This document shows, piece after piece, positions 11,371 through 38,313 of a stretch of 64,000 bases of DNA. Each line of letters starts with the position of its first letter. The stretch's first letter is position 1. The stretch lies in assembly GCA_014871385.1 (NCBI GenBank), contig CM026426.1, positions 21,008,573 to 21,072,572 of the forward strand, written 5' to 3'. Made by a program: the position numbers and the translations under genes. The stretch is from Ceratodon purpureus (lineage: Eukaryota > Streptophyta > Bryopsida > Pseudoditrichales > Ditrichaceae). The notes under the pieces are model-generated. The model was given only the letters and a program-made list of their open reading frames with translations. It had not been told where the DNA came from and ran no database searches.

Positions 11371-11388
11371 TGAACCAATCATAGTAGT

Positions 11389-14300
11389 ATGCAATTTACG
11401 ATGGAGGCAGTAGCAGCTATACCGCGTGTTTTGAAATTAGCGTTAGCTGGAGGAACTGCAAGATTTGATTTCGCTGGTTACGGTGATTCAGTTGAAATCC
11501 CAAAGTCCGATCTAGTGGAGTCATTTGGCCTAAGAATTGGAACATTGCATATTAAAAAATTGGATATTGATGGAGCCCTCTGCGGTCGATTCTGTCCCGA
11601 AGAAAAGAATGGCCAAAAGATCTTCACGTTGCCCTATACAGTAGACGGGGTTTACATTGTACATGAGGATCTTCAGATGGGAGTACCTCCCCGGGAAGCG
11701 GAAATACAACCAGAAAGAAATGATAATGAAGAGCCTTTGGATTGCCATCTTTTGGAGGATACGTCGTGTGACAGCCCTTACAGCGAAGGTGGATTTTCGT
11801 GTGGAAGTCCTGAGTTTGAAGGGGGCTCTGGATTGCGCAGGGCAGATGCTCCAGGCAAACGAAACCTCTGCCTTGAGGATTATCCAGTCGAGCCAATTGG
11901 TACCATGGATCTTCGGAGCACGGTGGTGCACCATGCACCCAGTTCCCCTGATGTAACAACTCCACAGCAAAGTCCCACGTCAAGCAACCGATTACATGCT
12001 CCCCCGTGTGGTCAGAGTCCAGTGGAATCCCTGCAAGCGAAGTCGGAGGGTGAACTCCACGCTCATTCTTATATGTCACCAAGCTCTCCTTTAAGGCCAA
12101 GGGCAATGGTAGCTGAGGACAAAGACTCGCCATTTCCCGGTGCTTTCTCCATATATCCGAACTTAATGGATCTGCCTGGCAAGGGTTGCACTGGTGAGCT
12201 CGCGAGTCTCCTCCTAGTAGATTTCCCACACACAAAGTGCAGGTATCTGCCGGGGGAGTATAAAGGAAATCAGATTTACGAAGTTCCTCGAGTGACAGAT
12301 GACGATTACATCACAATAGATTTGTCTTTCGATGGGCATCCTTGGATAAAATCCAACAGCTATAATTCAGCACGGCTCAAGGAAGCAGTTCTCCGTGTTC
12401 GAAAGAGTTTTTGCGCTGGAGCATTTGAGTGTAGAAACAAGGATTGCCCCCATGTCGACCTCCATGGTGGACCAAACACACTGTACTGGGATGGCCGATG
12501 TCATACAAGGCCAACACCTGGTAAAACGCCAATAGACAGCGACTGGAGATGTTCCTTTTGGCATTATACCCCTTATAGTGTCCAACAGTGCAGCGCTGTT
12601 CTTTGGATAATCAGCCATGAATCAGAGTTTCTAACACGAGCGGTTGTGCACGCCGGAACACACTCTCATCTCTCACCTGCAGGGCGAAGTGGGGGGGCAT
12701 ATGTCAACATGACGGATACAATCCACAAGTTTGTGGATGACCAGCCGTGGCTGCTGGCTGCACCAGGATGGGTAGGATTTTGATGTGCGCACAGAAACTT
12801 CTTTGATTTAATAATGCAAAGCACAACAGTAGAAGAGAGGGAGATGCTGAACGAAGAAGACATAGTCCGCATTCTAGAGGATGCACCACCTTTCCACGAC
12901 AAGACTCGAGTAAAATATGTCGTTACTAAGTTCAGGTCTGACCAAGAGCGCTGCATTTTGGCGTTGAAGCGTTACTCCCGGTACTGTTACATTCAAGATA
13001 GTCATTTCCCTGGTCAGTCAGATGAAGGCATCAAATTTGTATTTAAAATGTCGACTGTTGGTGTTGGAAGCGGGGTGGACTTGGTAAGGCGAATGACATC
13101 AGGAGATTTAAAGGATTCATTCGTAATGTTTGACCACGTTAGACGAATTCATCAATGGACAACGATGGCAGCCCATGTGTACGATCATAATCTCCAGCGG
13201 TTGCTCACCATAGCGGTTTGTGAGATGAAGTTGGAAAACACAGAAAACCAGATAAAATTTTGGAGGCTCCTCAAAAGTGCAATACAAAAACGAGGGATGC
13301 CTAAACCAAAATTCAAGGGCTTTATGGCAGACACTGCTCCGGCAAACTACAACGCTGTAAGGGCAGTTTATGGATTGGTGGAGGGGTTGGACGGAAATCC
13401 CGACGACGTTGACAATAATGTCGCCAACACTGAACATCCTATACTTAGGACGTGCTATTTCCACTTTGTGCAAAGCATCCGTGATCACACCAATAAGTGG
13501 GTTATGGAGAAGTTCCGAGTTCATCATGTCGAGATGTGCAAACGATGGGCATTAGCACCAACAAACCTGGAATTCCGACAGATTGCTGAAGAATTAGAAG
13601 ATTGGTGGCAATCGTCTGGAGCAGTACAAAAATGCAACATCAAATTCATGCTTGCATGGAAAACGTGGTGGATGGCAAGGAGGACGTTATTTGCTTATCA
13701 CCACGTGAACGAACTTGATCTAGATTTAGGAAGCGAAGCACTAATTCCAAGTACGAATTTATGCGAACCCGTCCACAGCTCCATGTGGGCAACATCTGCA
13801 TGTGGATACAAGGTAAAAATGGATTTGTACACCGTGTGTGCAGAGGACATGACTCGGTCATTACTCCAGCAACAATTCTGTCTAGCGGCCTTAAAAGGCC
13901 AACTCAAAGATTCTGGTCCGTCGAAGGCTGACTTGTTGCTGAGAAGTGCAGCAAGGTCACACCGCCCTGAAAAAGTCGCAATGGCGGTGAAGGCTGCAGT
14001 GAAGGGAACTGAGTTCCATTCCAGAGGCGTCGGAAGAAGAGCTCGATAGGACATCCACCACGTTTTCCACCACGTTTTCCAAACTCTTCTGGGATGGCGC
14101 CGGCGCCATTTGGCACTGCACCAACAACAGCGGGGGGGGCATGGCAGCACGAGAGTGCATTCCAAGGGGGTCCCACGGTCGGCGTTACATCAACAATGAG
14201 CGATTTCAGGCAAACTCAACGTCAAAATCTGGCCACTGCGGTATCAAACCCGGGCAATCAGAGGCTGCAATCGCAAGCTGAGTCACAGAGCTTTGAGCCC

Positions 14301-15503
14301 CACCAGGAATATGATCCCTACCGTGCCCCACAATATAATCAGCAAAGCACTATGTGGAGGGCTTCCTGCCTTCCGCCTTCTACTCAGCAATATCTGACAA
14401 ATCAAATATTGTCATCATCCTTGAATCCCACCCATGAATCATACATGGGGTAGAATGGAATCCGAATCCCTGTTCCTAGAGCAAACATCTCGGGGCAGAG
14501 TTATGGACATGGAAATCATTCCTTTTATGCACCTTATAACGTAACGCATCAGGAAATTGTTCGTCCCGGTCTTTCAAACATACCACAATATCAACACCAG
14601 GAAACTCCAGTCGCACAGCCTGTATTACAGTTCGGGCACCCGGTCCTAGAAAGAGAAGTAGACCACAATGAATGGGCTATCCGTAGATCCTTACCGGGGG
14701 AGGATCCCAAATGTTCCGCTTATGTTGATCGAAACGGAAGATGGGAGTCCTGTTGTCGTCCTCTCAAAAGTAACTCGAATCTCAGTGTCGCAGCTCCATC
14801 TTTCTATGGCATATGTGAAATTCGTTTCACAAAGAGCTTCCAAATCTATTGGTTCTATCCAAGATCAGCAGCAGGGTGTGTGGGAAGCGACCATGTTCTC
14901 CACATGAGAGGAGGGAAATCGCCAAAACTTCCAAGGGTCTGGCTAGTTGATATGGGTACGAAGTTGACTACGTCAGAGGCTAATGAGCTGGGTAGAGCCG
15001 GATTCCTCTTGGTTGATGATGCTTCTGTAGAGGAGCAGCTCAAACTCCAACAAATTGAGTTTGCAAGTAACGTCTCACCAATGAATCCGCTGAGAAGACC
15101 TCCGCGCAGGGCCGGGAAGAAAGTCAATAGAAGATCATTGACTAACAGTGGGGAGTCCAGAAGGGATAATGGATTACGGATGGTCGCACAGGTTCGGGTA
15201 CTGAGTCAATGCAAGGAGGATTCTGTTTACACGTTCAATTTGCACACTGTGTCGACGACTACGAACAAATCTGTAAATTACGTAATCACCATCTGTGAAA
15301 TGCCGTCATGTACTTGTCCATTCTTCGTCAACAGCGTGTCTGACCACAAGCCTGGACATTTTTACATGACTTGTAAGCATATGTATCACATTTACAACCG
15401 GGTGCTCGGATTACCGCTTACTGATGAGCGGCCACATCAGGCAACATTGAGTCGAGCTGAAGTGGAAGATATAATGAAGACCTGGATACCTACTCCAACG
15501 TGA
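11389..15503 (+). pseudogene. Divergent MULE-type transposase T'' of block 3, in three reading-frame modules
   Basis: Module 1 (11,389-12,783, ends TGA) has a Cys-rich zinc region (FCAGAFECRNKDC) and RAVVHAGTHSH, matching the zinc domain of T. Module 2 (ATG 12,814-14,049, ends TAG) is the catalytic part: MFDHVRR, GFMADTAPANYNAV and CYFHFVQS give the D, D and C-x2-H signature. Module 3 (about 14,094-15,503, another frame, TAG at 14,451-14,453) has the RVWLVDMGTKLT block also found in T and a SWIM finger CTCPF...CKH (about 15,310-15,380). The breaks between modules fall near those of T. The TIR of element 1 ends about 20 bp before the first ATG, so its own promoter is displaced. The palindrome at 14,094-14,109 is inside module 3. 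Confidence 0.75.
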
Positions 15504-16072
15504 ATTGCCGCCTAAAAACGCCCGCATTCACCCCATATGAAAGCGCTGGCTGTCGAGTGTAGTTCTTGTCGTAGGCATGGTCAGAGCTGGAAAGTCTAGA
15601 AGTCAGATAGAACAAACAGCGAAGTTATGTTGCAAAGTCTTCGATTTCAGGCCCCACCACTGAGCGTTTGAACTACAAATTTTAGACTGTTTTTGGTATT
15701 ACCATATATACAATTGGATTGAACATAAAGTTGTCATTATATTTCTTGCTTATGGCGGCTGAAACTTACTCTCTTTTTTCCTGAATCCTGAGCCTCATTA
15801 AAGTAACCTGGATTTCATAATCAGTTTCAAATTGTTAAAATAACGGCGAAAATCCGCTCAAATGGCGCTGGCGCCATTCGAACGAGGCTCTGTAGGCGAG
15901 GCCACTGTTAAATGAAAAACTATGCTCGGTGGGATGAATGTTCAAATCTGTTCTCAATGCACCCTATAAATTGTTTAGCAACTCTTCTCTTACAAGTTAT
16001 CAACGCTTCAAGCAAGTAGAATTTAGATCTTTTCTTCTTAGCGAGATTAGCAGCATTGCTCCCCGCCTCATC
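15504..16072. promoter_or_regulatory. Intergenic region with palindrome and TATA box of the first RING gene
   Basis: No gene is seen from 15,504 to the ATG at 16,073. The palindrome variant ATGGCGCTGGCGCCAT is at 15,862-15,877, and CTATAAATTG is about 90 bp further on, near 15,964. The order is therefore palindrome, TATA box, leader, ATG. Confidence 0.5.
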
Positions 16073-17156
16073 ATGTCGTCGATTGCTTTGTCCCCATTTG
16101 GTACGCACTACTCTAGGATTACGTCCATCTGTTACCACAAACATTTGATTGCAACAGAGTCAAAGAGAAAGCTAGATATCTCAGAGGAGAAATTGAGGAT
16201 ATTGAAAGAGGAATTGGCAGTGGAGGAGCCCGTGATCTCTGAGGTAGGTAGTTGTTTCAACGCACTTGCTGAGGCGGAGGCTATTCTCCGTGACACCCAC
16301 TCACGTTTCTTACTGTGCTACGAGTCTGTAAAGGATGCAGTTGTGCAGGCTGCCATGATTGATAGTGCTACAGCAGACCCAAGAGTCCGCTTTGAGACAA
16401 GGGCGAACGTGAGTAGTCTGCGAGAGAAGATGAGACAGTTGAGGGAGGACCGAGCTCGGGCAGAGTCGACACTCCGCAACATGGATGGGTATGGTTCTTA
16501 CCGTTCCGTTATTGTCTTACTACTTGAGGCACAGCGTAAAACTGATATCGACCGCGAGGAGTGGCAGGAGATGGAAGCTGATCAGTTCCTGACCATTGAA
16601 ATTCTACGTCGCTATAGTAAACACACGCAGTTGACACTTTCGTCCGGAGTTCTCCACCCGAGTAGCATTGCTGAAGGGGACACTGGAAGATGCGAGATGT
16701 GCGGAACTGGATTTCCGGCAGACGAAGTGATTACTACACCGTGCGGCCACTACTACCATTTGTTTTGTCTTGCAATGCGGGTTGCAGTGGATCCGGAGTG
16801 CAGTAAGGCTGCATGCAGCCTCCCTTTCCCGATCCCGTGGATGCAAACCTTTGGGTTCCCATCCATTATCCTATCGGAAAACAGTACGGAGGCAATATTG
16901 AGTTCTTCCTCCTCAGAGGAAGAAATTGCTGCCGGTAAGGTCTTTACTTGAGGTCGACGCAATTTGAATTCTATTTGATTCTATGTTGGGAATTCTAAAG
17001 ACATTGATGCTGATAATGTGTGTATTTTGATCCTTTTATGAAGCCGGCGACAGTGGAGATATTGGTGCAAATGAGCTGGGGACCCAAGAGGTAGAAGGTC
17101 CTGCAGAAGGAAATCCCTCACCAACACCGCTCCAAAAACGTCCTAGGGTCCATTAA
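16073..17156 (+). CDS. RING-type zinc finger protein with coiled coil (probable E3 ubiquitin ligase)
   Basis: Two exons, 16073-16934 and 17044-17156, join in frame to 324 residues (donor GCCG|GTAAGG; acceptor TGAAG). The first two thirds is rich in Arg, Glu and Leu and looks coiled-coil. The zinc region reads CEMC...TTPCGHYYHLFC, then an unusual last pair C-x4-C (ECSKAAC). This is a RING-H2-like order with a loose final pair. After it come SIILSE and a Ser/Glu run that could bind SUMO. The end is TPLQKRPRVH, a likely nuclear signal. Start is chosen at MSSIA because it fits the TATA box and the length of its paralogue at 19,918. RING proteins usually transfer ubiquitin; the target is unknown. 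Confidence 0.7.
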
Positions 17157-17797
17157 ACTCTCTGTTTAGATAGAATGTCACTCTGAAACATCAGATAAGA
17201 AGCCGTAGTTTTGTCGAAAATGGTTATAGAATGCAGCACTACTATGGAACACTACCTAGAATGTTCTTCAGTAAGTATCTGCAACATCAGATAGGTAGCG
17301 GTAGTTTTGTGAAAACGCGATACAGAATGCAGAACTATTGTGGAAATATACGGCTTTCAGATATCACATTGTAACTGATCAAGTAATATAACACTTCATT
17401 TTGTCAACATAAGTATAGCTCTTTCAATGAATTGGGGACCTAGATGAAGTTCACATTATGTCGGAGCTCTTAGACAATCCCTAATTGTGAGGAAGAAATC
17501 ACATCATCTTGCTCACTGCCGTGGGATGGCGCCGGCGCCAACTGATACTGAATTTGATCAAATTATTTCCATCTAAACGATTGGCGCCGGCGTCAAGTGA
17601 GACTACTCAAATATTAAGGTAACTGTTGTTGCATTGAAGTCTAAAAGAAAGGCCATAGACGAAACGGTGCACTTAAAACGGTACAGTTGCCGTACTGCAT
17701 CACCCTAAGCATCCGACATTTTTATTTCCAATTTGCGAATTACACGACCTTTTACGAAGAAAATTGAAACTTCAATAAATCTATAGCTCGAGAGACA
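17157..17797. promoter_or_regulatory. Intergenic region with two palindromes
   Basis: No coding sequence is seen. TGGCGCCGGCGCCA is at 17,527-17,540 and the variant TGGCGCCGGCGTCA at 17,582-17,595. Two short related stretches (near 17,195 and 17,295) repeat the wording of a TAAG-AGCGGTAGTTTTGT-like sequence. A weak TCTATAGC lies near 17,780, just before the next ATG. Confidence 0.45.
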
Positions 17798-18802
17798 ATG
17801 TGGACGATCATTCCATCAATTCATATATTCTCTACTTTAATCATGAGTATGGTGATACATAATTTCGTAATGGCCTACCGACCGGATCCCCCTAGTCCGA
17901 TAGAAATAGCAAATGTGACACCGAATAACGTTACAATTTACTGTATTGAGAAGGATTCTATAGATGGGGAGATCCGGCAACAAAACATCATAAACAGTAA
18001 AATTTTAAAGAATTCTGTTGTGCAGGTTGGCATTGCAAATCGAGATGACTATGACTTGGCAGACTTTGGAGAAAGTCAGTACTGTGTGTTTGAGATGTTG
18101 TATAGAGGATACAATTGTGCAATCTTATGGAGTACTGACAAGTTCTGTGTTTGGGAAAATCCTGAGGTTGTGCTGAGCCGAAACCGATATTCGGAGCCAC
18201 ACCCCCCAAATTGTCCCATATGTGACGAGAAAGCGAAGCTAGGCCACCAACAGTGCCGATGGAGAGTTGAAAAAGATGGAGTCTATGTCTCTCAGTATGA
18301 CATACATCGAGGACGCCATCGATTTGTAAAAAAAGCTGATTGGGATGAGGAATTCCTTTCCGAGGAGCTAGTCAATGAGTACAACATATCGATTTGGAAT
18401 AATCTTGAGCATGAGCTGATATTATCAGAGCGAACCGCAGAGGGCACAAAAGGATTGCTCACCCTGGCCCATCGGAAAACTGCTAAATTTTCGTTAGTTC
18501 GTGGAACAGACGATGAATTTCTATACACCTGGATCTGTCATTTCCGAGTTGCCAAAACCGGTGCCTACCGCAATGGGATGGTTCTCTGGATTCCACCTCC
18601 ATACGACAGTCTCTCGCCTATTCGATGCAATGATTGTTCTTGGAAAGCCGACTCCGATGGTATCTGGCTAGATTCTAGTGGCTGTGGTCTAGTTGGACCA
18701 AGCTGGCAAAAAATGCATGATTGGCTGTTTCATGAGTGCGACTCACTAGAAAAGTACAGTAAACCAAGCAAAAGACCGAGACGTGAACACCAAGAACTAT
18801 GA
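17798..18802 (+). CDS. Two-domain protein resembling plant self-incompatibility S1 homologues (tentative)
   Basis: Single-exon frame of 334 residues, ATG to TGA. A hydrophobic N-terminus (about residues 1-27) could be a signal peptide. Two halves show the same pattern: a strand-rich segment starting NVTIYCIE or ISIWNNLE, then a closing C-x-W-x(4-5)-D-G motif (CRWRVEKDGVYV and CSWKADSDGIWL). N-L...W-x-C-x-F and C...C-x-W...DG resemble the plant S1 family (secreted small beta-sandwich proteins), here duplicated. The C-terminus KRPRREHQEL is basic, which would suit a nuclear protein, so secretion is in doubt. Two palindromes lie upstream. The family assignment is from motif memory only. Confidence 0.45.
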   Translation: MWTIIPSIHIFSTLIMSMVIHNFVMAYRPDPPSPIEIANVTPNNVTIYCIEKDSIDGEIRQQNIINSKILKNSVVQVGIANRDDYDLADFGESQYCVFEMLYRGYNCAILWSTDKFCVWENPEVVLSRNRYSEPHPPNCPICDEKAKLGHQQCRWRVEKDGVYVSQYDIHRGRHRFVKKADWDEEFLSEELVNEYNISIWNNLEHELILSERTAEGTKGLLTLAHRKTAKFSLVRGTDDEFLYTWICHFRVAKTGAYRNGMVLWIPPPYDSLSPIRCNDCSWKADSDGIWLDSSGCGLVGPSWQKMHDWLFHECDSLEKYSKPSKRPRREHQEL

Positions 18803-19140
18803 TACATTGAGGCCTTTCTCGGCAGTGTATTTCATAAATATGAATCAAATTTCTTCACTGGGACAATTCAGTCAACAAGAATACAGCATGGGCTGCATTG
18901 TGAGTAGATGATGGCGCTGGCGCCATTTCAACACAAGAATTTGCTTTCCATTTCTTCTTTAATTCTTCTTCATAAGAAGCAATTTTTTCTAAAAAACATC
19001 AAAACATATAACTCAATCACATCCGGCTGTTAGGAAAATTTACTTCCATCAAAGTTGAACGAGTGACAAGCCACCGTTATGGAATGAAGAAAAAATTACT
19101 ACACAATATTGGTGCTAATTAACTTTCAGACTGGGCTCGT
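18803..19140. other. Intergenic, one palindrome
   Basis: No gene is seen. The palindrome variant ATGGCGCTGGCGCCAT is at 18,911-18,926; the rest is AT-rich. Confidence 0.5.
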
Positions 19141-19422
19141 TTATATAGGAATACTATCAAGCTGACGCCATAATTTTACAAGATCGCGGTGTTCCAGATA
19201 ATAAATGACTTCACCAACAAGGATCTCATAATGCTGATTCACCATACTGATGGTACATATCTCCATCCCCAGTATTTCTGGAACATCTTGCTCAGGAAAA
19301 TCAACAACCCCATAATTGATTAAAACTTCTCCTTGATTTGGCGCCGGCGCCATCTCCTCCTCGAGAAGGTTGCCCTGACACATCCCGTTGGAGGCATTAA
19401 GATAGAGAAATGCGATGGCCAT
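19141..19422 (-). CDS. Small acidic protein, unknown function
   Basis: The frame has 93 residues, starting MAIAFLYLN and ending RQLDSIPI. A TATATAG motif lies about 55 bp upstream on the minus strand (near 19,475), which supports real transcription. The palindrome at 19,339-19,352 falls in the coding sequence and reads Met-Ala-Pro-Ala-Pro there. No domain is recognised. Confidence 0.4.
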   Translation of the reverse strand: MAIAFLYLNASNGMCQGNLLEEEMAPAPNQGEVLINYGVVDFPEQDVPEILGMEICTISMVNQHYEILVGEVIYYLEHRDLVKLWRQLDSIPI

Positions 19423-19917
19423 TTAAACCAGGTCTTGTTCATGCCCAGCACATGCAATCCAAATCCGTTGTACTATATATGAACACCAATGATTATACAA
19501 TCTCCGGTTGATCTGTTATAAAATCTGAATTCTAGGAAAAAATAATCATGAGTACTATGGAAGAATTATAATGACAGCAAATTGCAGTTCGAATTTGCAA
19601 AGGGCTTGGTGGGTTGTTAGATTACAACCTAGTGGTCGAATGGCGCCGGCGCCAATTGAACTCGGGGAGGATCCCTAGGTTGCGACCATTTACATCAATC
19701 CATCCATTCAAATTCGTTCACGAAGGTTATCGCCTGATATGTATATGAGACTCTCTCCGCGCATCTCCTTCATTCCAAATTAGAACAACTGAGAGAGTGC
19801 CAAGCTTTTGAAATTCGGAAGACGCAGGCTCTACCTCTGCGTTGAACCTTTGTCAACCCAGATTGTAGCATTGGTTATTTGAGAAATAGTCCCTTCTGTA
19901 TCCACGGCTTTTGAAGG
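19423..19917. promoter_or_regulatory. Divergent promoter region with palindrome
   Basis: It lies between the minus-strand small gene and the second RING gene. The palindrome TGGCGCCGGCGCCA is at 19,641-19,654. A TATA-like GATATGTATATGAG follows about 85 bp later on the plus side (near 19,740), and a minus-side TATATAG is near 19,475. Confidence 0.5.
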
Positions 19918-20955
19918 ATGCCGCCATCTCAAATAGCGTCAACTCTAGCGCATAAGGCAGACTTAGTTAGCGATGCAGGACGACGTGTTGAGATTGCCCG
20001 AATCCGAGAGCGCAATGTAAGTGAGCAATTCGAGATAGACTTGCCGGAGCTACCGGAGGAAGGGGTAGAGCGCAATGCCGTCCTTGAAGCGGATGGGGTT
20101 TTGCGCGATGTTCATTCTCGATATTTGCTTTGTGTAGCATCAGTGAAGGATGCCTTAACTCAGGCGCAGAGGATAGATGCGATGACAAGCGACGCAATTG
20201 TGAGAATGGATTCTAGAGCGAATCTGATGGAGCTAAGAGAAAAGCAGTTAGAACTTCATCACGACCGTCTGCGTGCAGAGCGCGATTTACGCGCTCTTCC
20301 TGGATTCCAGGACTCATCGAGTGTCTTAGCAAAGCTTCTGGATGCTCAAAGGGAGTTGGAGAAACTTAAGGAAGAGTACCACGAACTTCAGGCCGACCGT
20401 CGCATGGCTGGCGACACTCTAAGCAACTACGGTGAACACACTCAGCTCAGCTTGTCCAAGCAAATCCATCTTCCGAGAATTCCGTTACCAGATGACGGAA
20501 GACGATGCGAGATGTGCAACACAGGATTCCCGGCAGGGGAAGTGGAGATTTCACCGTGTGGTCACTTTTATCACATTTTCTGCTTGGCAATTCGAGTCGC
20601 GATGTATCCAGAATGTTGCGGTCGTGGGTGCACTGTGCCATTTCCTCCATGCTGGCTTCAGAATTACGGATTTCCTTCACAGACAGTCGTTGAATCAGAC
20701 AGGGGCAGCTCGTCTACCGACAACGACAGTATTAACGGTGTGGTTGCACCGTCTACCTCATCCTCCTTTTAGTGCATTTTGATCATTATCCATAATGATG
20801 AATCACTAACTATGAAGGGTCTTGCCCGTGATATTCTTACAGACTTGGAAGACATAAACGAGGTGCCCAGTGTTCAAGCTGATCAAGTAGTCCCCAACCC
20901 CAGCACTTGTCGATCCCCGCCCACGCCGCTCTTTAAGCGGCCAAGAGTTTTGTAG
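19918..20955 (+). CDS. RING-type zinc finger protein, paralogue of the gene at 16,073
   Basis: Exons 19918-20737 and 20843-20955 join in frame to 310 residues (donor AACG|GTGTGG; acceptor TTACAG). It shares the HSRYLLC, HTQLSLS and CEMCNTGFPAGEV blocks and the zinc core CGHFYHIFC with its paralogue. The last metal pair is again irregular (ECCGRGC). A TVVESD stretch with following Ser/Asp residues lies after the RING. The C-terminus TPLFKRPRVL repeats the basic tail of the first copy. The N-terminal part is coiled-coil-like. Intron position and phase are the same in both genes, so they come from a duplication. Confidence 0.7.
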
Positions 20956-22951
20956 GCTTGAATTAATGTAAACTCGGATCTAGTTACAATCGCTTTCTGT
21001 ATGTTGCAAGCGTTTTCTTAGGCATACTTCAGCACATATAGATTTTTACCGACTTGGAAGCAGTCACAGTGACTTTTAACGAATTAGAAGCCGTAATAAT
21101 GTTCTGTATCTCCGATGACGCTGGTATTGGTAATTTTAATGGTCCCTTTCCATATACATCTCTGCCATGTATGAGCTCTACGATTCTTATCTGTATGAAC
21201 ATTTTTAATGAGGCCAAGTGGATACCACTGAGTCAAGTAGCACAGCGGGAGCCTTAGCGCATTACATTTCTTACTAATGGACGATAATATTATAGGAATT
21301 ATGACTATTTGTTTTCCCTTGCCTTTAACCACATGTTCAGAGTGCGACTTGCAGCCGAGAGTATGTGCTCGTTCCTTGCATTGCTGTGACTTATATCTGC
21401 TTAGATTGTTTGTGGTACATTTCGAATAGGCCGTGAAAAGAAAAGTTTATGAAATAATTTGATAGTGTTGGCGCCGGCGCCATGGCCATTCTTTTCTCAG
21501 TTCCATCTCAATGTTTTGATAATCAGAATTAGGATCGGTCTGCTTGAGAATGCTAAGAATGTTCTCTACTTGCTCGTCGGAACATTCTGATTGTTTTCCT
21601 TGCTGAACTAAGGTTCGTCACATGCACTTCATGTATCCAGCTAACTACTCACTCGGCCTTGCACCCGAAAGTTTGTTGTATTTGCTTACGTTCTCATGAC
21701 TGCTATTTGCTTCCTGCTGCTAATAAAAAGAACAGTTAATGTCATAATTCGACAGTGTTGGCGCCGGCGCCATGTCCATCCTTTTCTCAGTTCCATTTCA
21801 AAATTTCAAAAAGCTGAATGAGGATCGGTCTGCATGTGAATCCTCGTAAATTTGTGAGAAGTGTTCGACTGAAGTTGGGCGTCGGATCATTCTGATCTTT
21901 GAGTTGATTTTTGCCACTTGAAATTCACATGGATTCTGCCTACTGCTAACTCGGTCCTGCAGCGGAGGGTATTCATTTGTATGCTTTAATTACCGCGACT
22001 GGCTTTTCAAATTACCTGATTCATGTAAGGGTGACAGTCGCTGGTTCACTCCTCATGGCGCCGGCGCCAAATGAGTAATAATGTTTGAGGAATTATTCCA
22101 TAATCAGTAATATCTCCCATCTTATCATTGATTCATTCCTGCTCGCTTGTGCGCAATCACTTTCTTGGAACACGTCCAATCAGCCGTGACATGGTAGACT
22201 GACCAGTAAACATTTGGTCTGGAGATGATTTCGTATATACGAGTCAATAACATTATTATAGTGAATTAATTTGTACTCCTACCATGTCCTCTGGTTAAAC
22301 TGCAACTCTAAAGAAAACAACTTGCATTACATTACAAATCATATAAACAGATTCACATCACAAAACCTCTCAATTGAAACCAAAACTAATTCTTGTTTCC
22401 GCAGTTCTTTCGATAAAACTTGGCAAACAAATGAAACGTTCACCTACACTTCAAAGACCACTTACGGCAAATTTGACTCTGAAAGTCCATTATAATAGGG
22501 AGCAATGGACTCTTGCCAACCAAAATCATTACACATATGAAACAAAATCCTCTGCCAAAAGTACAGCAGTGTATACAGGTGACCAAGAACCAACAACGCA
22601 AATCTCGGTAGGGCTGGAGATAGTTTTAAGCGCCAAATTTGTCGCCTCCACTCAGAGTAAGCCCTCTACCGTGATTATCAGTTATCACGCGCATAATTCC
22701 TAGCATATAGCAAATCGGTCTCAATGCAACTCCCCGAGCAAAGTGAACGAAGACCGTTACACGTGGACAGCACTCACACTCGCATTCATGTTCTGAATCC
22801 TCCGACCACTTACAGAACCTACGCAAATCCAGCTCTCTTCCACACGCCTCCAGGATGTGATTGTCCGCAGCTCGCCGTCATTGGTAAACAAACTATCATC
22901 AATGGCAAGAACGCCTAGCTTCGCATACGCCTCGTCAAAGTATTCATCTTT
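20956..22951. repeat. Gene-poor stretch with palindrome-bearing dispersed repeats
   Basis: No convincing gene is seen. Two copies of a dispersed repeat (about 21,440-21,560 and 21,730-21,850) share GATAGTGTTGG-palindrome-CATG and TTTTCTCAGTTCCAT. Palindromes are at 21,469-21,482, 21,759-21,772 and 22,056-22,069. Related repeats lie at 26,030, 26,745, 31,940 and 32,270. Confidence 0.6.
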
Positions 22952-23411: not shown

Positions 23412-23421
23412 TTGTACGCAA

Positions 23422-24012
23422 AGTAGAGAGTGAGGCAGAACGATGCCTAGTCCCACCGAGGTTTATACTTGACCCCGAATTTCCACATTAAATTCTACAC
23501 ATGTCAAGTTACAAATTTGAATGTTGCTTTAGAAAAGCCGTATCATGAGAATCCTAAAAATGGTCTATATTTCTAGCGGCACTTACTTCAACCGCCATTG
23601 TGAAGTTTGCAAAGGGGACAGTACTTTTTGACTGTGTGGTTCATCGTAGACGGTCATGTGCATTTACTTCTGTATCCGTTTTTCGTCAGCAGCAGTGTCA
23701 TCTATATTAACTCTAACGATTACAGTAGCCGCAAACAGCAACATACTGCACAGCAAACTATGTCATTAAATTATGGATGGTTGAGACATTCAATAGACGA
23801 CATATTTCAATATTAACTTGGTACGGGATCAATAACACGGTAATCTAGTAATAAATATTTTGGAGTAACGTTCGCTTGTATCCGTTCGGCGCCGGCGCCA
23901 TCGCCTTTGGACAGGCTGACATTTGAAATCGCCGTTACCAAAGTGTTTTATTTCACCGTATATATGGTGTGGAAGAAACAATCCTTGACAACGTCTACAC
24001 TTTCAAGGAAAC
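23422..24012. promoter_or_regulatory. Divergent region with palindrome and TATA boxes
   Basis: The palindrome core GGCGCCGGCGCC with CGGC start is at 23,887-23,900. TATATATGG follows about 60 bp later (near 23,960) and the ATG at 24,013. On the other strand TATAAA near 23,465 serves the minus-strand frame. Confidence 0.5.
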
Positions 24013-25519: not shown

Positions 25520-25555
25520 TTCTATTTTCTCAATATTTTCGGAAAGTATTGCCAA

Positions 25556-27537
25556 GTATTCATCTCTATTTTTCGAGTTTTTTTATTTCTCTTAAATTGA
25601 TGTCACCTTAAAATTTGGTGCTCCAATCCTCTTGGCTCCGGCGCCAAATGAAGAACGCCTCGCTTTGACACTGGAAGAAATCTATCAGTCGTTCCTAGCT
25701 TGGGATAGCTTTAATATGCAGAGATGTGAAAGCATAATTATGTGATGCTTGGCTATAACCACATATAAATTGATTATTGTATCATCTGAGGAGGGTTGCA
25801 AATACATTATTCAGTTGTTAATTAAAGCCAAGTACAATATAAACTAACAAAACTTACCTTAATCCAAGGATACTGAGTAAACACTTTGACCACTTTTATT
25901 TACAAAAATTGAGTAATCACTTTGACCACATGTATTATCGACCAAAAAAGACTCTGACAATTTCAGTTCTATGGCTGAACTCATGCATGAGGTCAAGCCG
26001 CACTTCTAATGATAAGAAATATTTATATTATAGTTCGGTAGTGTTGGCGCCGGCGCCACGTCCATCCTTTTCTCAGTTCTAGATCTCTATTTCGATTAGC
26101 GTAATTCATATTGGTCTCCTTCAGGATGCCCGAGAATGTTTAAGAATGCTTTGGCTGTAGTTGATGGTTGGAACCCTCTGATTGTGATGGGGCTCTCGAT
26201 GGTTTGCGTTGCAGCTAAGCTCGTGGTTTTCTCTTCGGTTTCGCTTCTAGGTTGACTATCCACATTCCCTGCCCATCAGTATTTCTTTGAATACCGGATC
26301 TTAGCTTGGAGATCACTTGCGGGTTTTTTTTAGTCCTTCTTCATATATTTTCAATTCTATTATCTTCTTCTGAACAGAAAGACACTGTCTCTCAAACTGT
26401 TGGCTCGGAATTTCGTAGCTTTCTGTTCAGTCCATTAGCTCACTTACCTGTCCCCGTCATTTTCTATTACGACAACTCGGAGTTCCACTTAATGCTTCCC
26501 TAATCTTAAAACGGGTTGGTTTGCTTGATAATGCTATGACCTTAGTTGGTGGTCAGACTTCCTGATTGTAATTTCTCGTCACATGCACTTGAGTAGGATC
26601 CTGCTATCTGCTCTCCTGCTGTCTTGCAGCCAAGAGTTTGTGGTACTTGCATGCAATGTCGTCACCGGTATTTGCTTGCATTGTTTGAGGTATTTGCTTT
26701 CATAAGCCATAGAACCTTCCTCTTATGATAACGATTATTTATATTATAGTTCGATAGTGTTGGCGCCGGCGCCAAGTCCATTTGTATGTCAGTTCTAGTT
26801 TACTATTTCGATTAGCTCTGTACGGATTGGTCTGCTTGAGAATTGTCGAGAATGTCTGAAAATGCTATGGCTGTATTTGATGGTCAAAACCCTCTGATTG
26901 TGAGGAACGCCGCGGAGGAGGGCGACGCTCAGCCTCTGTCATCTGCTCTTGGTGTGTTGGATTGCAGCTACACTCGTGGTTTTCTCCACGGTTTCGCTTC
27001 TGGGTTGACGATCCACATTCCCTGCCCACACTCTCTGTGAATACTGGATCTTAGCTTGTTCATCACTTGCGGGTTTATTTTTACTGTGGCTTGATTATAT
27101 TTGTAATTATATCTTCTCCTACTTGACATGAAGACCCTCACTCCCACACTGTTGGCTCGGAATTTCGTTGCTTTCTTATCAGATCATTAGCTTTCGTCAT
27201 TTCCGATTGGGGCAATTGTATTATACCATGCCTACTTACGAATTGATGCTTTTCCCATGCTCGTGCAATTCGTGCCTTGTTGATAGTACGGGACACCTTT
27301 GCTACCGCACTGATCAGACGATGTCCGTTGTACTTTATTCCGTGGATCCTACTACTAATCAAACTGAAATTAATGCGGTTGTATCCGGGAGTGAATTGAT
27401 AGATTGAGGATTTCTTAAGCCAGCAGTCTTGCGTACAGCCTTGTGGGTTTCCATCTGTTAGTCACTTTCGTGATTTTTTAATGTAATTTTGGCTCAGAAG
27501 TCATTTAGCTCATTCTTGATCCTTTTATCAGCCGCAG
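25556..27537. repeat. Dispersed palindrome repeats upstream of block 3 gene B
   Basis: No gene is supported. Palindromes occur at 25,633-25,646, 26,045-26,058 and 26,761-26,774. The last two sit in longer repeats that share TTATATTATAGTTCGRTAGTG before the palindrome and GGTCTGCTTGAGAAT or a variant after it. Unidentified 5' exons of the following gene may be hidden here. Confidence 0.5.
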
Positions 27538-30500
27538 ATTGACACTTCCGTTATTGGGGAAGCTGATTATGGAGAATCAGAACCAGAGAACGATGACGAC
27601 GGACTTGGGGAAACCATCTTGAGAAAACCCGATGACAAGCCCACCGTGTCAACTTTTGAGCAGTTTCAAGAGGCATTATGCAGCCAACTTAACATTCACA
27701 AGCGTCTTGCGGTGAAAAAGGTAAAGCCGCTTCGTCTACAAATTCCTCTCTGTAGACTGAAGCCGACGACCTGGGTTCGACAAGCTTTGGAGGCAGATGT
27801 ACAAATTGTTTACGAAGGCTTTCATATCGGCGACTGGGGTGCCAATTTCTGGGTTACAAGCTGCGGTGGTCCCGGTTCCTTTGTTCTTAAGGAGCTTGAG
27901 GACCATGAGAGGTGGGCAGCTGTGTCTGCAAAGTTCGACCAGGACCTCCGAGACAAATGCGAGTCTGACCCTGAAAACAGGCCGATTTATGAGAAAATTA
28001 TTGGACAGTATGTCAATGTATGGGATGGGAATCATAGGGCCTTGGCGTGGATGCGCCATATCAGAGAATGCAATGGAGAACCGATCTTGGTGAACTGTTT
28101 CGTTCTCAATGACTCCGAAGAGGACCGTGGCTGGATCTCGAACTTCATGCGTGACATCAACGAGTATGTCCCTAACCTATGGTCCACCAAAGTCGTATTG
28201 ATTAGCTTTCCTTGTTACTCGTAATTTAATTTTGAAATTGTCAGATATTCCGATTGGAAGTACTGGCACTGTTAAACATCAGTTCGAGTTAGGCTTCGAT
28301 GGCACGATATGCATGCCAATGGCGGCCTGGATATGCATGGCACCTCATCTGGCCAAGTCCTCTTAATCAGAAGTACTTACACTTTGGGGTATTGGGATGA
28401 CTTGCCATGATCATGTTGCTGGCCGCATCGGCATGCGTACATGCGGAATGTAGCTGGGATGAGTCAGACATGGTATGATGATAAGTAGCAGAGAATCTGG
28501 CTTCAGGAAATTAACATTCAGTTGTATGAAATCAGTGGCACAGTGAACTCAACGGTGAAGAAACAGTTGGCCCACACTATTTTCGAAGTGATGCAAATAG
28601 CCAGCCGAGATCCCACTGAGTACAAGGTCTATTTTACAGACAATGAGATTGAGCGCATCAAGGATGTTTGCAAGGGGCGGTGGTATAAGATGACGTGTGA
28701 TGCTGTAAGCAAAGTATACTTCAAGGTAAGAGATGTGGTTTTCAATTCCTTGCTGAATCTGTCCATGGATCGCTGTAATGTTGGAACGCTTGCGATGAGA
28801 AAACCATGCAGTGTTCGTTATGATGGCGGGAGTTTCTGTTTGACTCTCATGTTACGTCTCAAATACCTGTGAGTGAGTACAGCGGCAACGTCTTTCGCAG
28901 CCATCGTAATTCTGAGTTATGATAATAGGATGGCTTAGCTTTGACTGAATTGATTCAGTTGTACGTAGAGGACCTTCAATGAGGCAACTAATTGTAAACT
29001 TATAAGGCCTTTTTGTGGAGAGGATAATTCGTTAGCAAGTCATTGTTTTGGGAAATCGTCTGATGATCATGCCATTGAAATTCTTGCAATGCTAGATTCC
29101 TGGACACATCCTTAATTATAAAGTCAGACATTTCGACTAGATCATGCATCAGTAGATGGGCTGAGAGGGTAAGGGCGATGTCAAGACTCGATAGTCCTCA
29201 TTTAGACATCCTCGAACTCGTTAAACATATGATTTACTTATTGTATGGGTTGTTTTATCATTCCATAAACTGTTTTAGGAAATGATCAAGAATATCAGTA
29301 TAATTGGGGCAAAGCAGGTAGCAATTAGCACCACGCATTTTATTATTCGGCACGACTCTAGGAATGATGATTAAGCACATAAAAGTCTTATAGCTCTCCA
29401 TTTAGCCATTTTCTTCTCTTCGACTTCAACTTATATCCGGCCAAATGGCGCTGGCGCCATGACCCGAGAACGATTTCGCAATCCTTCATCACTGTCCTGA
29501 TTCTTGAAGTGTCGCTGTTCTCCGCTCCTCTTGACTACTGATTCTTACTCAAAATTCGAGTTGTCCCTGAATCTCCTTTCGAGCTTTAAGAGCGATGTTC
29601 AATGTACTGACCTTGAGTTCAATTTGTATGGTGGTTTCATATCAATGCAGCGTGAAATCAGCATGGCGGAGCGAGACTCAGTAAAGCGGCTACGCAACAA
29701 AGTGAGCAATCCAACCTCTCTGGCCATCGAAGAAGCCAAGCACGCAGGGGCTCAGAAGCTGCGGAAGGAAAAAATGGATTATATGAAAAAAATATTTCGA
29801 CTATGCAACCCCAAGTATCACCCGCACCTCATCGACGAGCTAGTCATTAACAGTCGCAGTGGCGCAAGGGCCAAGGACAAGAAGGTTGGCTTGATGACCG
29901 TTGACAACCTTAATATTCTCGTTGGTGCCCAAGGTGTAAACATCAAAAGAGTGTTGCGGTTATGGAATTCTAGCTGTAAGGAGAAAACGAAGTACAGTTT
30001 CCCGGATCTAGACTTCACGAGAGCCGCATTCCAGAAGTGGCTCAATTGGAGAGCGTGGTGGGAGCAGGTAACTTCTTCACCCTCTTATAGGCTAAAAACA
30101 CTTCCACAGTGATTACGACCCTAGGGCTTGGATACTAAGGCTTGGTACATAACATTTAAAAATTTAGTTGGAATTATTTGCAATACATCCAGCAGTCATG
30201 CAGTCACCTCGATGTCGACTTCCTTTGTTTTGCATGGCTTCGAATCTGGTGACTCTGAAATTACATCCAGCAGGCATGCAGTCACCTCGATGTTTGCTTG
30301 CACGCCTTCGAATCTGGTGACTCTGAGCTGACCATGATTTGTTTTGTATCGTAGTTGCATTCGAGGGTTGGTGTGGTCTTGGAGCAACTCCTTGGTAAAA
30401 GCAAGGTGGACAAAGGAATCGGTTTCCTGCGACTGAAGACCGACACCACGAAGTGGCTGGAGGACTTCTTTGACGATGTAATGATATTTGGCTTCGAGAG

Positions 30501-33500
30501 ATTCTTCCCAGAGATCTTTACAACAGAGAAAGGACCACTGCGCCACAAGACATGGGAGGAACAGCCTAGGTACGACTTGGGAGAAAAGGCCGTACAGAGG
30601 TGTGTCATGCGGTTTGTGCGGTGGCTCGGTGAGCAACTATTGTTAAAGAATGAAACCGGGGATTTAAAGAACTACCCTATCTTTCAGGACTGGCGACGTC
30701 TAACCGCCGACGGTTGCTTCACCCAGTACCAAATTGATCATTACGACCCTCCGCATTTGATGAGCCTAGGATGGTATATCAAGGACAGTGAAGGATTTAC
30801 CGACTACATCGACTCCGTGGACAAGAACCTCCATGATCAGGTGCTACTAGACATTCAGGGTACTATGGATGCGTCCCTAGAAGAGAAGGCCGCGGTTCTT
30901 TCGGAGACACTGCAGATGGTCAAGCGGCAGGTTGAGAGCTCCGTTCGCGATGGAAATGGCGCCCGTGACATGGTATCTCTCACCCCATCGTCTGACCTAC
31001 TTGGTGTGCTTGAGGGTAGAGTCAGTTATGTTTACGTCCCGGTTACTAACAATGGGTTGCTGATGCATTATGGACCCATTCTATTTACTGAGCTGCAGGA
31101 CCTCATTGAATCATCAAAACGGGGAGATATTTCGCAAAACGAAGACGTGAATGATGTCATTAGAGGGGTTCTCGGGGACATGTCAAAATTGGGAACTCCC
31201 AATGAAGACGATGATTTACAGTTTCTACGCCAGACTCAGGGAGAGCCCATTGCCAAGGAGATTGAGGGTGAGGGGGTTCGTCGGGGTCCTACGTTGCGGC
31301 CTCGTAATGTCAAGGAGACACGTGAGGAGGAGGCTGGTTTGAACAGTCAGGTGGCACCCCTGAAACGACTGCCTGCGAAGTCCGGGAAGAAAATTCAAAA
31401 AGGTGGCGAGGATGCAATACCCCTCGTTAGATACATGGCCCTCCCAGTCGATGGCGTGGCAGAGACAATTAAGTTGTCCTTAAATATTGCCTTCGAGTCG
31501 CTCCTTGAGGGCATTGACCGATCCATGTTCATCACTTTCCTGAATTGCATCAAGCAGGTGAGTTATTTCTAATCTTTATTTGCTTAAGGTTAGTTAGCAG
31601 TTTCTGTATTGCGGTCTCGTGGTTGCATGCTTGCGGCTCTCTTTATAATTTCAAGCTTCTCGGTGTGCCATGGATTGTCATTTTCCTGTATGCACTGCAC
31701 TCTAGAATTCCCATCTCTGCATGTTTGAAGTGCTCCTCACATGTGCAAAATCATTATGTAATTTCCTCATGTGGGCCGCAGCAGCATTTCACAAGTCAAT
31801 GGGCGTATGATCTGTAAATTGCTTTGCGTCATCAAACAGGGTTAACAAATGCATAGAGTTTGTGGTATTTACATGCATTGATTTTGGTATTTGCTTGCAT
31901 AAGCCGTGAATTCTGCTTCTAATGATAAGAATTTTTTATATCATAGTTCGATAGTGATGGCGCCGGCGCCAAGTCCATCTCTTTGTCAGTTCCAGTTCAC
32001 TGTTTCGATTAGCTTTATTCAAATTCGTCTGCTTGAGAATGGTCGAGAATGTCTGAAAATGCTTTGACCTTAGTTGCTAGTCGGAACTTCCTGATTGTAA
32101 TTTTTTGTCACATGCACTAGAATAGGATCCTGCTATCTGCTCTCCTGCTGTCCTGCACCGGAGAGTTTGGGGTACTTGCTTGCATTGTCGTCACTGGTAT
32201 TTGCTTGCATTGTTTGAGGTATTTGCTTGCATAAGCCATAGAACCTTCTCCTTATGATAAGGATTATTTATATTATAGTTCGATAGTGTTGGCGCCGGCG
32301 CCATGTCCATCCTTTTCTCAGTTCCAGTTCACTGTTTTGATTAGGTTTATTCGGATTGGTCTGCTTGAGAATTGTCGAGAATGTCTGAAATTGCTTTGAC
32401 CTTAGTTGCTGATCGGAACTTCTTGATTGTAGGACACTGGGTGTAGGACAATGAATGAAAGACGACCGAGTTTCACTGAAATAGAATGTGTTTAGTGGCA
32501 TTACTGGAAATCGTTTTTGGTCCAGATGGCGCCGGCGCCAACAGCAATCATACATTTTCTGACATGCTTTTTCACTGGTCGTCTTTCATTCATTTTTGAT
32601 GCAATTCATTTTCTGTATTCTTCTCGAGGTCAAATTTGCGAGGAGTTCTCTTGGGGTTTGATTGGAGGACGCTCTGTTGCAACTTCCGAGAGAATATATT
32701 CATTTCTTTGTTGACCTCATCCGTGAAATTGGCATGGAGCTGGCGCCATTGGACCATCCTTTTCGTGATTGCGCGATACTTGTTTCTCAAGATAATCTGA
32801 ATGTTTCTTTCTAACATGGCCTTTGTGAACTTGTCAGATCAACGGTGGCAAGCTCCGGCAGCATGATGGTGTAGCTAGCCCGAACTGCGTCGATTTGATC
32901 ATTTGCGATACACCGGACAATAACAGGGTGCCTGGTGTATTGGGAGGAGTTCCAACGTGGAACATGGTGAAGAAGTCCACTTTTGCAGCCATATTTCACA
33001 TTGCTGAGGCGGTCCTCTCAGACTCTGGATTTTTGCTTCTCTTTGTGCCGGCAGAGGAGCTCGATGACATAAGTTCGCTCCATGATTGGGACTGTGTGCG
33101 AACATTCTATGTTGTGAACCACAGGCCATTCACTCCAGCGTGGGTAAGAATGTTGTTCAACATTGTATCCATGTGGAGTTATGCTAAATTATAAGAATGA
33201 CGTGACTGATTACGTGCTGTGACATTGTTCAGAAACGGTTGTTCAAGGCTAAGGTTCTACGGAAGAAGAGCATGAAAAACGAAGCGTTTCATTTCAACAA
33301 AATTGCGAGTAAAGTCATGGACTGGAACCCGGACCAGTCTGATGTCCTTCAAAACGTTGTGACCGACGACATCCTTCTGCGAGTGGACGGGGTTAACTCA
33401 TTTCGTGGATCAAAATAGAAGTCACCGGCGTCAATGGAATCTATGATTGAAATCTGCACCGAAAGTGGAAGCGCGGTCCTCGAGTTGACCGCCGGTGTCG

Positions 33501-33839
33501 GTTCGTTTTTTCAGACTCTCGCTCTTAAACACTTAAACTTATTGAATTCAAAATAATCTGCAAAGCAGTTTGCATGAATCTTACCCATTGGTTGCGACTG
33601 CAGGCTACTCTGTGTCCGCCTGTGAACTGAGTGGAAGACACATACTTGCGATGGAGGAGGATGCAACACCTTTTCACGTGTTCTTGAAAGAAATTTCTGT
33701 TGAACCAGACGTAGATATAGCAGAAGAGGACAACCGGAAGATGAGTCTGAAACATCACCTAGGCCTGGTCGACAGTATAGCCTCGCAGTCAAAACAGTCC
33801 ATAAGTGGGACCTCTTATGGAATCGCGACCATAAGCTAG
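27538..33839 (+). pseudogene. Gene B of block 3: ParB-like domain, long middle, methyltransferase-like end; one stop
   Basis: Exons 27538-28163, 28494-28725, 29651-30067, 30355-31557, 32838-33143, 33233-33500 and 33604-33839 keep frame and have GT-AG ends. Exon 1 has IPLCRLKP and VNVWDGNHRALAWMRHI, like the DGxHR block of ParB-like domains. Exons 5-7 give VDLIICDTPD, then VLELTAG and ACELSGRHILAMEED. Catalytic motif first and AdoMet-binding motif last is the order of beta-class DNA amino-methyltransferases. The usual D-P-P-Y is D-T-P-D here. A TAG at 33,416-33,418 falls where element 2 has Glu of RGPREK. Introns are long and hold five palindromes. It matches gene B of element 2 exon by exon. 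The start codon is not found. Confidence 0.7.
31558..32837. repeat. Large gene B intron filled with palindrome repeats
   Basis: The intron between two conserved exons holds four palindromes (31,958-31,971; 32,290-32,303; 32,527-32,540; 32,734-32,749) and two copies of the longer dispersed repeat. The matching intron in element 2 is only about 90 bp. Confidence 0.6.
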
Positions 33840-35949: not shown

Positions 35950-38313
35950 TAGAAATTCGGCCATCTTCTTCATGCTCGGAAACTGATATTGCAGCGTTTC
36001 CGCTTGGGATTGTGGTTCACCCCCACCAACTTAGTTGGATAGCTGTGGTTTGTGACTCCAAGTTAAACTTCGAGGTGTTTTGATCTGGTTTCTGTAAATG
36101 ATCGCTTTATAGAGTTGAGCACGCTTTTTGTGACTTAACATGATTCTGACAAGGCCATGAGACCTTATAGAATATACATATGTAGTAGATTGGCTAATTC
36201 GAGTGAACCAGCTCAATCCACCTTCAAATGGAGCTGGCGCCACCCTCGGGGCTTTGGGGTCTTGACTTCCAAGTCAGCTCAGCCGATGCAAAGTTTCGCC
36301 AAATTTCATGCAAGTTGGTGCTAGCATTATTGCTGTAGACTCTGCTCGGGCATTTGGGTAATTGAGTTTGATATATTGCAGTATTAGTATGTAACAATGC
36401 AGTCTCTTTGGTTTCCAAAGGCAGCATAATATGGATACTGTACTTCTGAAATTTCAGTTTCATGGAAATGTATGTTTTGGTTGAACGGGTAAAGTCAGTG
36501 TCACAGAGGCAGAAGTCTTCCTGCATCTTGACTTAGATAAATTTGTGTATAATCTTCCCAACTGGCGCCGGCGCCATGGCCCTCGAATGTTTTGCAAACT
36601 TCCATCAAAAGACATTATCATTTGGATTTTGCTAACCGAGTTTTGCAGCCGAGGCTCCTTATTGGTTTGCTCGGATTGATTGGTCTGGTGTATTTGCATA
36701 TGAAGTATTTAGTTTAGTGGTGAAACTGCAACATGTGCAATGTTTTTTTATTTGTGGCCCACTGGTTATGCTTGTGAGAGGGATTTTTGATGGCTGGGAA
36801 TCTTTGTAATGCAGATTATCATTGCTCCTCTACACTGTGAAGGAGAGATTTTAGTGCACTTTACCATGCTTACTCCCAATTACGATATAATGTATCGTGA
36901 TGTTTAGAGTTCTCTTAATCAATATTATCAACTTCAGTTTTATTAATTTTTGATAATGAGATATGAATACATCTTAATATAATGATATCATAAGAAGATT
37001 AGAATTTTAACGTAAACAATAATCATAATTATTCCGTTATCAAATGAAATTGACAAAATGATCATGTTTCAATCATACTGAGGCAAGTGTACGAATCTGG
37101 CTTACATATTCGCAAGCTCACTGACAAAGATCACTAGCACCAAATATGATTTCTTCTATTTTAAAATCCCGGAGCAATTCCACATTTTTCTATGTTACAC
37201 TCCTAACTCACCGGCTTCTCTAGTCGCTAAAAAAAGGAATAAATTGAATACCCACGGACACACATGAAAGAACCCACACACACATGAACTAATAATGCTT
37301 GGACGATTTTAATCAATGTGTCTTCAAGTTCACACATAGATGCAGAGAGTAAAAGCTGCAAAAATCCTTGATAGAGAAAATGAAATCCCACAAAAGGATT
37401 GAAATGGTCATCAATCACCGCGGCTTCCTTACCATTCCTTTATCATAATCCGCAAAAAAAAGAAAACGACAGTAGTACACAAAAGTTGCAACTTGGTCAC
37501 TTGCAGAGGTCGATACCTCCCACTTGGCGCCGGCGCCATCTCCCTTCTTTGTCAAAAATTATACTGTATGTCGTACGTATCGTACGCTGTATTCGTATCG
37601 TATGGTATTGTATCTTAATGGATGAGTATTGGATGATATTCGAAGAGTTACATTTTGGACGATGTATATCTATACGGTCTGTATTTCTGCCATTTTTGGT
37701 CCTCGGGTCAGTATTTTCAGGCGGATGATATCGTCAGAGGACAATGAATGTGTCGTTTACGCTCCTTACGAGGTACTAGTCCTGGCTGACAGCCTGTCAC
37801 GCGGCAGGCCTACGCGCACCCCCAACGACGACGCACTCTTAAACCACTGCCTCCACAAACACCACCAAAACTTCTATCTACAAATGTGGGTTGTGAGAAG
37901 AAAAGCTCCGAAGTGATCCGTGCCGAAGAAGGCAAGCTCCCAGGGTCGAGATTCAGCCACGAAGCTACAAGATCATTGACACCATGCCTGCAAAAAATGC
38001 TGCAAAACGATTTGCAGAAAATGATGCAAAAAACAATCTAGAAACTGAGCTAGTCCAGCTTTTTGCATGTTTTTATGCGGCGTGGTAGCCTTCGAGATGA
38101 TCTCTTTGCATTTAATTTTGCGGTGCAGTTGAGCTTCGACACCATGTGAGCGTGGGAGCCATAGTATCTTCTCTTGAAGATGACCGCTCTTGGAACGAGC
38201 GTGATCTCATGAGAGCGTGTGGAGTTTTGGGGATGGAGTGCAATTGCTTGAAATTGCGGGGCGTTTCGGTGTTTTCGAAACTCGAGAGGTTGTGATTGCG
38301 AGGTTTGGTGGCG
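35950..38313. other. Gene-poor end of block 3
   Basis: No gene is supported. Palindromes are at 36,229-36,242 (variant), 36,563-36,576 and 37,525-37,538, the last of the set. AT-rich sequence fills 36,850-37,100. The right border of block 3 must lie between about 37,540 and 38,300, but no inverted terminal repeat was recognised. Confidence 0.45.

Follow-up and report, generated by a model that had tools for sequence, protein, structure and literature searches.

The locus

The 64,000-base stretch of DNA analysed here (the window) appears, from its sequence, to hold three DNA transposons, all of them giant and MULE-like, in each of which a transposase-like gene is accompanied by an accessory gene. 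As read, the window is eukaryotic, with long non-coding stretches and split genes that have GT-AG borders. The host is probably a moss, since the accessory gene has a full-length relative in the moss Ceratodon purpureus, and a weak plant S1-like match is in line with this. Unit 1 (positions 1..11380, + strand) is the right part of a related element, the right end of which, at about 11,380, lies directly upstream of the transposase-like gene of unit 2. Unit 2 extends from about 11,380 to somewhere beyond 37,538, and unit 3 (46680..62028, + strand) is complete, with a length of 15,349 bp. Only unit 2 carries the subject of this report, a 14-bp palindrome, TGGCGCCGGCGCCA, that recurs within a 26-kb, transposon-like block.

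A palindrome confined to one element of the window

With up to two mismatches allowed, TGGCGCCGGCGCCA has 22 matches in the window, the first starting at 14,095 and the last ending at 37,538, and none in the rest of the 64 kb. Dinucleotide-preserving shuffles of the whole window (100 shuffles) gave a mean of 0.08 matches and a maximum of one, so that chance or base composition is rejected as the source. Fourteen sites are exact, i.e., 14095..14108, 17527..17540, 19339..19352, 19641..19654, 21469..21482, 21759..21772, 22056..22069, 26045..26058, 26761..26774, 31958..31971, 32290..32303, 32527..32540, 36563..36576 and 37525..37538. Six sites differ at one position: 15863..15876, 18912..18925 and 29446..29459 (each C7T), 17582..17595 (C12T), 23887..23900 (T1C) and 25633..25646 (G5T). 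The remaining two, 32735..32748 and 36229..36242, both carry C4A and C7T. Pooled over all sites, 10 of 308 positions depart from the consensus, and half of these departures are C-to-T changes in the central CpG. All five of the latter (at 15,863; 18,912; 29,446; 32,735 and 36,229) are C-to-T on the + strand, with none on the other strand, despite the symmetry of the site. A looser search for the 12-base core with up to three mismatches on the + strand returned 18 further weak words, seven of them beyond the block.

The original prediction of 22 copies in a single block, with none in the flanking parts of the window, is thus borne out at two mismatches or fewer. Its start positions agree with ours for 17 of the 22 sites, whereas those it placed at 14,094; 15,862; 18,911; 29,445 and 32,734 each lie one base too low; a 16-bp form may have been counted there.

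Several familiar categories were tried as identities of the palindrome. RNA families were rejected with no Rfam match at the gathering score, as were tRNA genes, of which none was found. An E2F-type promoter site would have TTT next to the core; by eye, TTT abuts the core on either side in just three of the 22 sites. The exact palindrome string appeared in none of 5.39 million papers searched, and a search of IMG/VR for two exact palindromes 1–30 bp apart found no relatives.

Repeat context and selection on the core

Six of the sites (21,469; 21,759; 26,045; 26,761; 31,958 and 32,290) share one diverged repeat family, aligned over about 100–480 bp, which is listed as D18 by the repeat finder without regard to the palindrome. 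Self-BLAST found no repeat of at least 40 bp around the other 16, in keeping with the earlier claim that the flanks mostly differ, and the palindrome is not restricted to a single ordinary repeat family, since these 16 fall outside the sole family found. When the six-copy family is counted as one, 17 independent sites remain. If the sites were placed at random over 64 kb, so short a span would have a probability of about 1e-8 with 22 points and of about 1e-6 with 17.

Within the six-copy family, every one of the 14 core columns is invariant, as compared with 53 of 125 columns outside it (hypergeometric P 1.7e-5, with columns treated as independent). The flanks of these copies share 58–86% of their bases (mean 72%), and the longest invariant run outside the core is seven. 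The core has thus remained invariant while its flanks diverged, which suggests selection on the site, and we regard the palindrome core, judged from these alignments, as being under selection. The same comparison bears on the view that an ordinary repeat family, or base composition, produced the sites incidentally. That view accounts for the six family members; however, it is largely refuted by the 16 sites beyond the family, by the near-zero compositional expectation and by the invariance of the core in the diverged copies, and we consider its probability negligible.

A further alternative takes the palindrome for a very small GC element that spreads by itself, of the type represented by the GC clusters of fungal mitochondria. 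A 14-bp core in mostly unrelated flanks is what such an element would leave behind. However, the sites are confined to one element in the window, no flanking duplication is seen by eye in the printed flanks, and the core has outlived its diverged flanks, all of which make this origin very improbable.

The symmetry of the site extends beyond the core to about 22 bp, with the form S-NN-W-TGGCGCCGGCGCCA-W-NN-S. On each side, the fourth flanking base is G or C in 16 of the 17 independent sites (P 1.7e-5 per side, uncorrected, with 24 flank positions inspected), and the base adjoining the core is A or T in 16 of 17 (P 0.001). Both members of each class are used: next to the core the counts are A10/T6 on one side and T10/A6 on the other, and at the fourth base C11/G5 and G9/C7. 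What is conserved is therefore the base class rather than a longer unit that has been copied. A protein that senses base class, e.g., via the minor groove, would give this pattern. A symmetric site of about 22 bp is expected of a dimeric protein, and the natural reading of the palindrome is that of a candidate binding site. The dimeric factor suggested in the original prediction is likewise the natural reading of this symmetry together with a core kept amid decayed surroundings.

The genes of unit 2 and the placement of the sites

The transposase-like gene of unit 2 (11401..15503, + strand) is read in three pieces, 11,401–12,783, 12,814–14,049 and 14,454–15,503, with a frame change before 14,050 and a stop at 14,451–14,453. 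The proteins of units 1 and 3 share 38% identity with its middle piece (12,814–14,049). A search of GTDB genomes with this protein found no relatives. Downstream lie three genes on the + strand: RING-like gene 1 (15938..16951), with weak RING matches that all fall under the Pfam cut-offs; an S1-like gene (17798..18802), with a weak match to plant self-incompatibility S1 proteins (E-value 1.6e-4, under the Pfam cut-off); and RING-like gene 2 (19918..20772), which is 43–45% identical to RING-like gene 1. Two RING-like genes with an S1-like gene between them are an unusual cargo. The accessory gene (27538..33839, + strand) has at least seven exons, set by eye, and encodes a predicted protein with a part that is ParB-like by eye and an amino-methyltransferase domain; it has an in-frame stop at 33,416.

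No satellite is shown by the repeat finders in unit 2, and no right end of the element was located beyond 37,538. Unit 1 seems to have inserted just upstream of the unit 2 transposase-like gene, in which case the left end of unit 2 would lie outside the window. The earlier view that the whole block is one unit therefore needs amending: the sites do mark a single element, unit 2, whereas the material immediately upstream belongs to unit 1. To the right of the last palindrome lies a FAR-17a/AIG1-like gene (38,296–39,309), the piece 38,797–39,309 of which matches with an E-value of 4.6e-4, under the Pfam cut-off.

The 23,444-bp span of the palindromes contains 7,866 bp (34%) read as coding, with exon borders set by eye, and none of the 22 sites falls within it. 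The first site (14,095) falls in a coding linker, now decayed, of the transposase-like gene; one frame there reads MAPAP. Counting this linker as coding leaves 21 of the 22 sites non-coding, and the probability of no more than one coding site is 0.001 with all 22 sites and 0.007 with the 17 independent ones. Four sites (31,958; 32,290; 32,527 and 32,735) lie in a single intron of the accessory gene (31,561–32,837), and the site at 29,446 lies between exons of the same gene. Another protein, P0007, which shares 80% identity with the transposase-like protein of unit 2 over 31% of it, is the only one of 23 proteins scanned to contain MAPAP twice.

This placement bears on the possibility that the sites bind a host or captured transcription factor and drive the genes of the element as enhancers or promoters of the ordinary kind. 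Five sites (15,863; 17,527; 17,582; 19,641 and 23,887) lie 60–270 bp upstream of likely starts, and a symmetric 22-bp site would suit a dimeric factor. However, the sites are not consistently promoter-proximal, given the four within one intron and three that lie 2.4–3.7 kb past the last recognised exon, and there are none elsewhere in the window, including around the FAR-17a-like gene at 38.3–39.3 kb. We thus consider this explanation unlikely, even though it is the strongest of the alternatives.

The accessory gene and its protein

Pieces of the accessory gene are common to all three units, with only its start within the window for unit 1, and besides the transposase-like gene it is the sole gene found in all three. 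It lies opposite the transposase-like gene in units 1 and 3 and on the same strand in unit 2, and the copies in units 2 and 3 have one in-frame stop each in the reading used. The pieces of units 2 and 3 are 25–38% identical, and the protein starts of units 1 and 3 are 65–75% identical. In units 1 (519–863) and 3 (52,479–52,886), both on the − strand, the predicted protein start contains heptads that resemble the tail of RNA polymerase II; none was noticed in the unit 2 pieces read.

When joined, the unit 2 pieces are 54% identical, with 99% coverage, to the Ceratodon purpureus protein P0023 (1,084 aa). P0023 matches the methyltransferase family PF01555 with an E-value of 4e-5, at a score under the curated Pfam cut-off, and its best match among phage methyltransferase families is phrog_67 (E-value 6e-6); 35 of its residues align to a phage methylase (E-value 3e-4). 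An N6/N4 methyltransferase domain in the accessory protein is thus supported by these profile matches. The usual catalytic motif of such enzymes is (D/N)PP(Y/F); the corresponding position reads DTPD in unit 2 and in the Ceratodon protein, and NIPE in unit 3. The N-terminal part, with VWDGNHRALAW, is ParB-like by eye. Two structure models had a mean predicted local distance difference test score (pLDDT) of 36 and 41, too poor for a fold search. The solved structures gave no support for P0014. P0023 and the ParB-like exon had just weak unrelated matches. No relatives were found in IMG/VR with the accessory and transposase-like alignments, or in the phage collection with P0023.

A methyltransferase domain raises the possibility that the sites are its substrates, i.e., that the element modifies its own CpG-rich palindromes. 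The domain is supported in the Ceratodon relative by PF01555 and phrog_67, and the passages of PMC12477816 that concern ParB-methyltransferase accessory proteins speculate that they bind and modify their own transposon. However, the altered catalytic motif makes activity doubtful, and we regard this role as improbable.

Units 1 and 3 and their satellites

Unit 1 contains the start of the accessory gene (− strand), a 128-bp satellite and the transposase-like gene (+ strand). The satellite (1191..4089, 22.7 copies) contains the inverted repeat CCCACTGTCG-GCAA-CGACAGTGGG plus GCCGCGGC. Unit 3 has imperfect inverted ends and is flanked on both sides by the 11-bp target duplication CGAGACTACTC (46,669–46,679 and 62,029–62,039). 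Its satellite (53207..54786) has a 171-bp period and 9.2 copies, and contains GGCCGCGGCC nine times. Unit 3 interrupts an open reading frame that looks retroelement-like by eye; for the flanking frames, neither Pfam nor the solved-structure library supported this appearance.

The target duplication of MULEs is about 8–11 bp, and unit 3 has both inverted ends and a duplication of 11 bp. In Pfam, neither the unit 1 and unit 2 pieces nor six relatives out of 17 matched a MULE transposase model, the matches obtained being weak and unrelated. The label "MULE-like" therefore stands on the order of motifs and a SWIM-like CxC-CxH, both by eye, as well as on the inverted ends and the 11-bp duplication.

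Over the compared ranges (4,701–11,300 of unit 1 vs. 55,400–62,030 of unit 3), the two units are 99–100% identical in 14 of 14 windows of 6,201–10,400, which covers the transposase-like gene. Identity is 87–94% from 10,400 to 11,300 and 52–73% over 4,701–5,900. The two satellites have no match to each other in self-BLAST, and both carry GC palindromes of their own, other than that of unit 2. The longest word common to their consensus sequences is 10 bases, and 23 of 500 shuffle pairs shared a word at least as long. The sole 8-bp palindrome that they share is GCCGCGGC, with 18 and 9 copies, respectively, plus one copy at 45,090; any shared 8-bp palindrome occurred in 15 of 2000 shuffle pairs.

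A proposed role in self-recognition

The palindromes are co-resident with the accessory gene in unit 2, and the related units carry other palindromes. By analogy with known elements, we propose that a dimeric protein encoded by the element binds the palindromes, marks unit 2 as self and acts against silencing, with the accessory protein as the likeliest binder; we give this reading as a whole a probability of roughly 0.5. The 22 dispersed palindromes would be recognised by a protein that binds specific DNA sequences as a dimer and is encoded by unit 2 or by its family. Bound at many non-coding places, including the accessory-gene intron, it would mark the element as self, and the marked element would stay open for expression and transposition, as VANC does for the Arabidopsis VANDAL elements. 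The ParB-like/methyltransferase accessory protein would be the likeliest binder, as it is encoded by the sole gene besides the transposase-like one that is found in all three units.

Several points weigh against this proposal. First, unit 2 is damaged by a frame change and stops, so that a resident active binder is not assured. Second, the ParB likeness has no counterpart in a profile comparison, as hhalign with five phage ParB-type proteins gave a probability of 0.2%, within the range of 20 shuffled controls (0.03–0.42%), and the VANC domains DUF1985 and DUF287 were not matched by Pfam in P0023 or in the six accessory pieces of units 2 and 3, nor were they found in the other scanned open reading frames of the window. 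Third, the dispersed sites of unit 2 are equated with the satellites of units 1 and 3, and the word comparison of those satellites, including the shared GCCGCGGC, was made after looking. Fourth, the sharp edges of the 99–100% block suggest a recent exchange or conversion of the transposase-like module; such an exchange would partly explain the contrast with the accessory half, which need not mean that the accessory gene evolves faster. Finally, the sixth site (19,339) also lies inside a 93-aa open frame (− strand, 19,144–19,422, reading MAPAP) that was not counted as coding, and the MAPAP of P0007 is known as a peptide alone, the codons of which can, but need not, spell the palindrome.

Comparison with known systems

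Anti-silencing encoded by an element and directed at a repeated cis motif is documented for Arabidopsis VANDALs (PMC5735166; PMC10398659). VANC21 binds the motif YAGTATTAY within non-coding DNA of the family to which it belongs. The VANDAL motifs are multiplied through tandem repetition, including in VANC and VANB introns and upstream of VANA, and VANC is less conserved than VANA (PMC5735166). The present element is similar in four respects. It is a MULE-type element with accessory genes; its motif is multiplied in its non-coding DNA and introns (21 of 22 sites being non-coding, with four in one intron); its relatives have different motifs or tandem repeats along with a conserved transposase, a likeness that recent module exchange could mimic; and its transposase is more conserved than its accessory gene.

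We also note four differences. First, the site here is about 22 bp and symmetric, whereas the VANC motifs are 8–9 bp (Hosaka 2017, PMC5735166; Sasaki 2023, PMC10398659) and "palindrome" is absent as a word from PMC5735166. Second, unit 3 has imperfect inverted ends, whereas VANDAL-type elements are described, in the relevant part of PMC6446971, as lacking terminal inverted repeats. Third, the host here is probably a moss, and anti-silencing is proposed by analogy; among the matches listed in a search for anti-silencing or VANC in mosses, the anti-silencing papers concern Arabidopsis or MULEs in general. Fourth, no VANC domain was found here.

A second comparison is with Ectocarpus, in which a 1,104-aa protein with ParB-like and methyltransferase parts is encoded in a 21.5-kb Sola1 element (PMC12477816). 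Such proteins are suggested there to bind and modify their own transposon, and the passages concerned describe no site. In both cases, a giant DNA transposon encodes an accessory protein of about 1,100 aa that has a methyltransferase domain. As in the passages on Sola1, the accessory gene lies opposite the transposase-like gene in units 1 and 3, whereas in unit 2 it lies on the same strand. The present elements further differ in being MULE-like and in a land plant, in that their ParB part is recognised by eye only, and in that candidate sites are seen.

ParB-methyltransferase fusions are also frequent in phages, as stated in part of PMC12704722. The ParB–parS systems and phage ParB–N6N4 fusions resemble the present case in that palindromes lie close to a gene that combines a methyltransferase domain with a part that may be ParB-like. 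Here, in contrast, the setting is a eukaryotic transposon with 22 sites over 23 kb, the ParB likeness is by eye, and no parA was recognised among the open reading frames scanned. It is conceivable, at long odds, that the palindromes are eukaryotic parS-like loading sites, at which a working ParB-type nucleotide clamp, retained by the accessory protein, would load and then slide over adjacent DNA, the 22 sites thereby coating the whole element against silencing, with the methyltransferase domain as the part that reads the DNA. If so, a plant transposon would be using a bacterial-type DNA clamp for self-protection.

If the proposed role in self-recognition is correct, the moss element would represent a second, apparently unrelated solution to anti-silencing, and self-marking would be a strategy that evolves repeatedly. 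The ParB-like/methyltransferase accessory proteins of giant transposons would, moreover, gain candidate target sites for direct binding tests.

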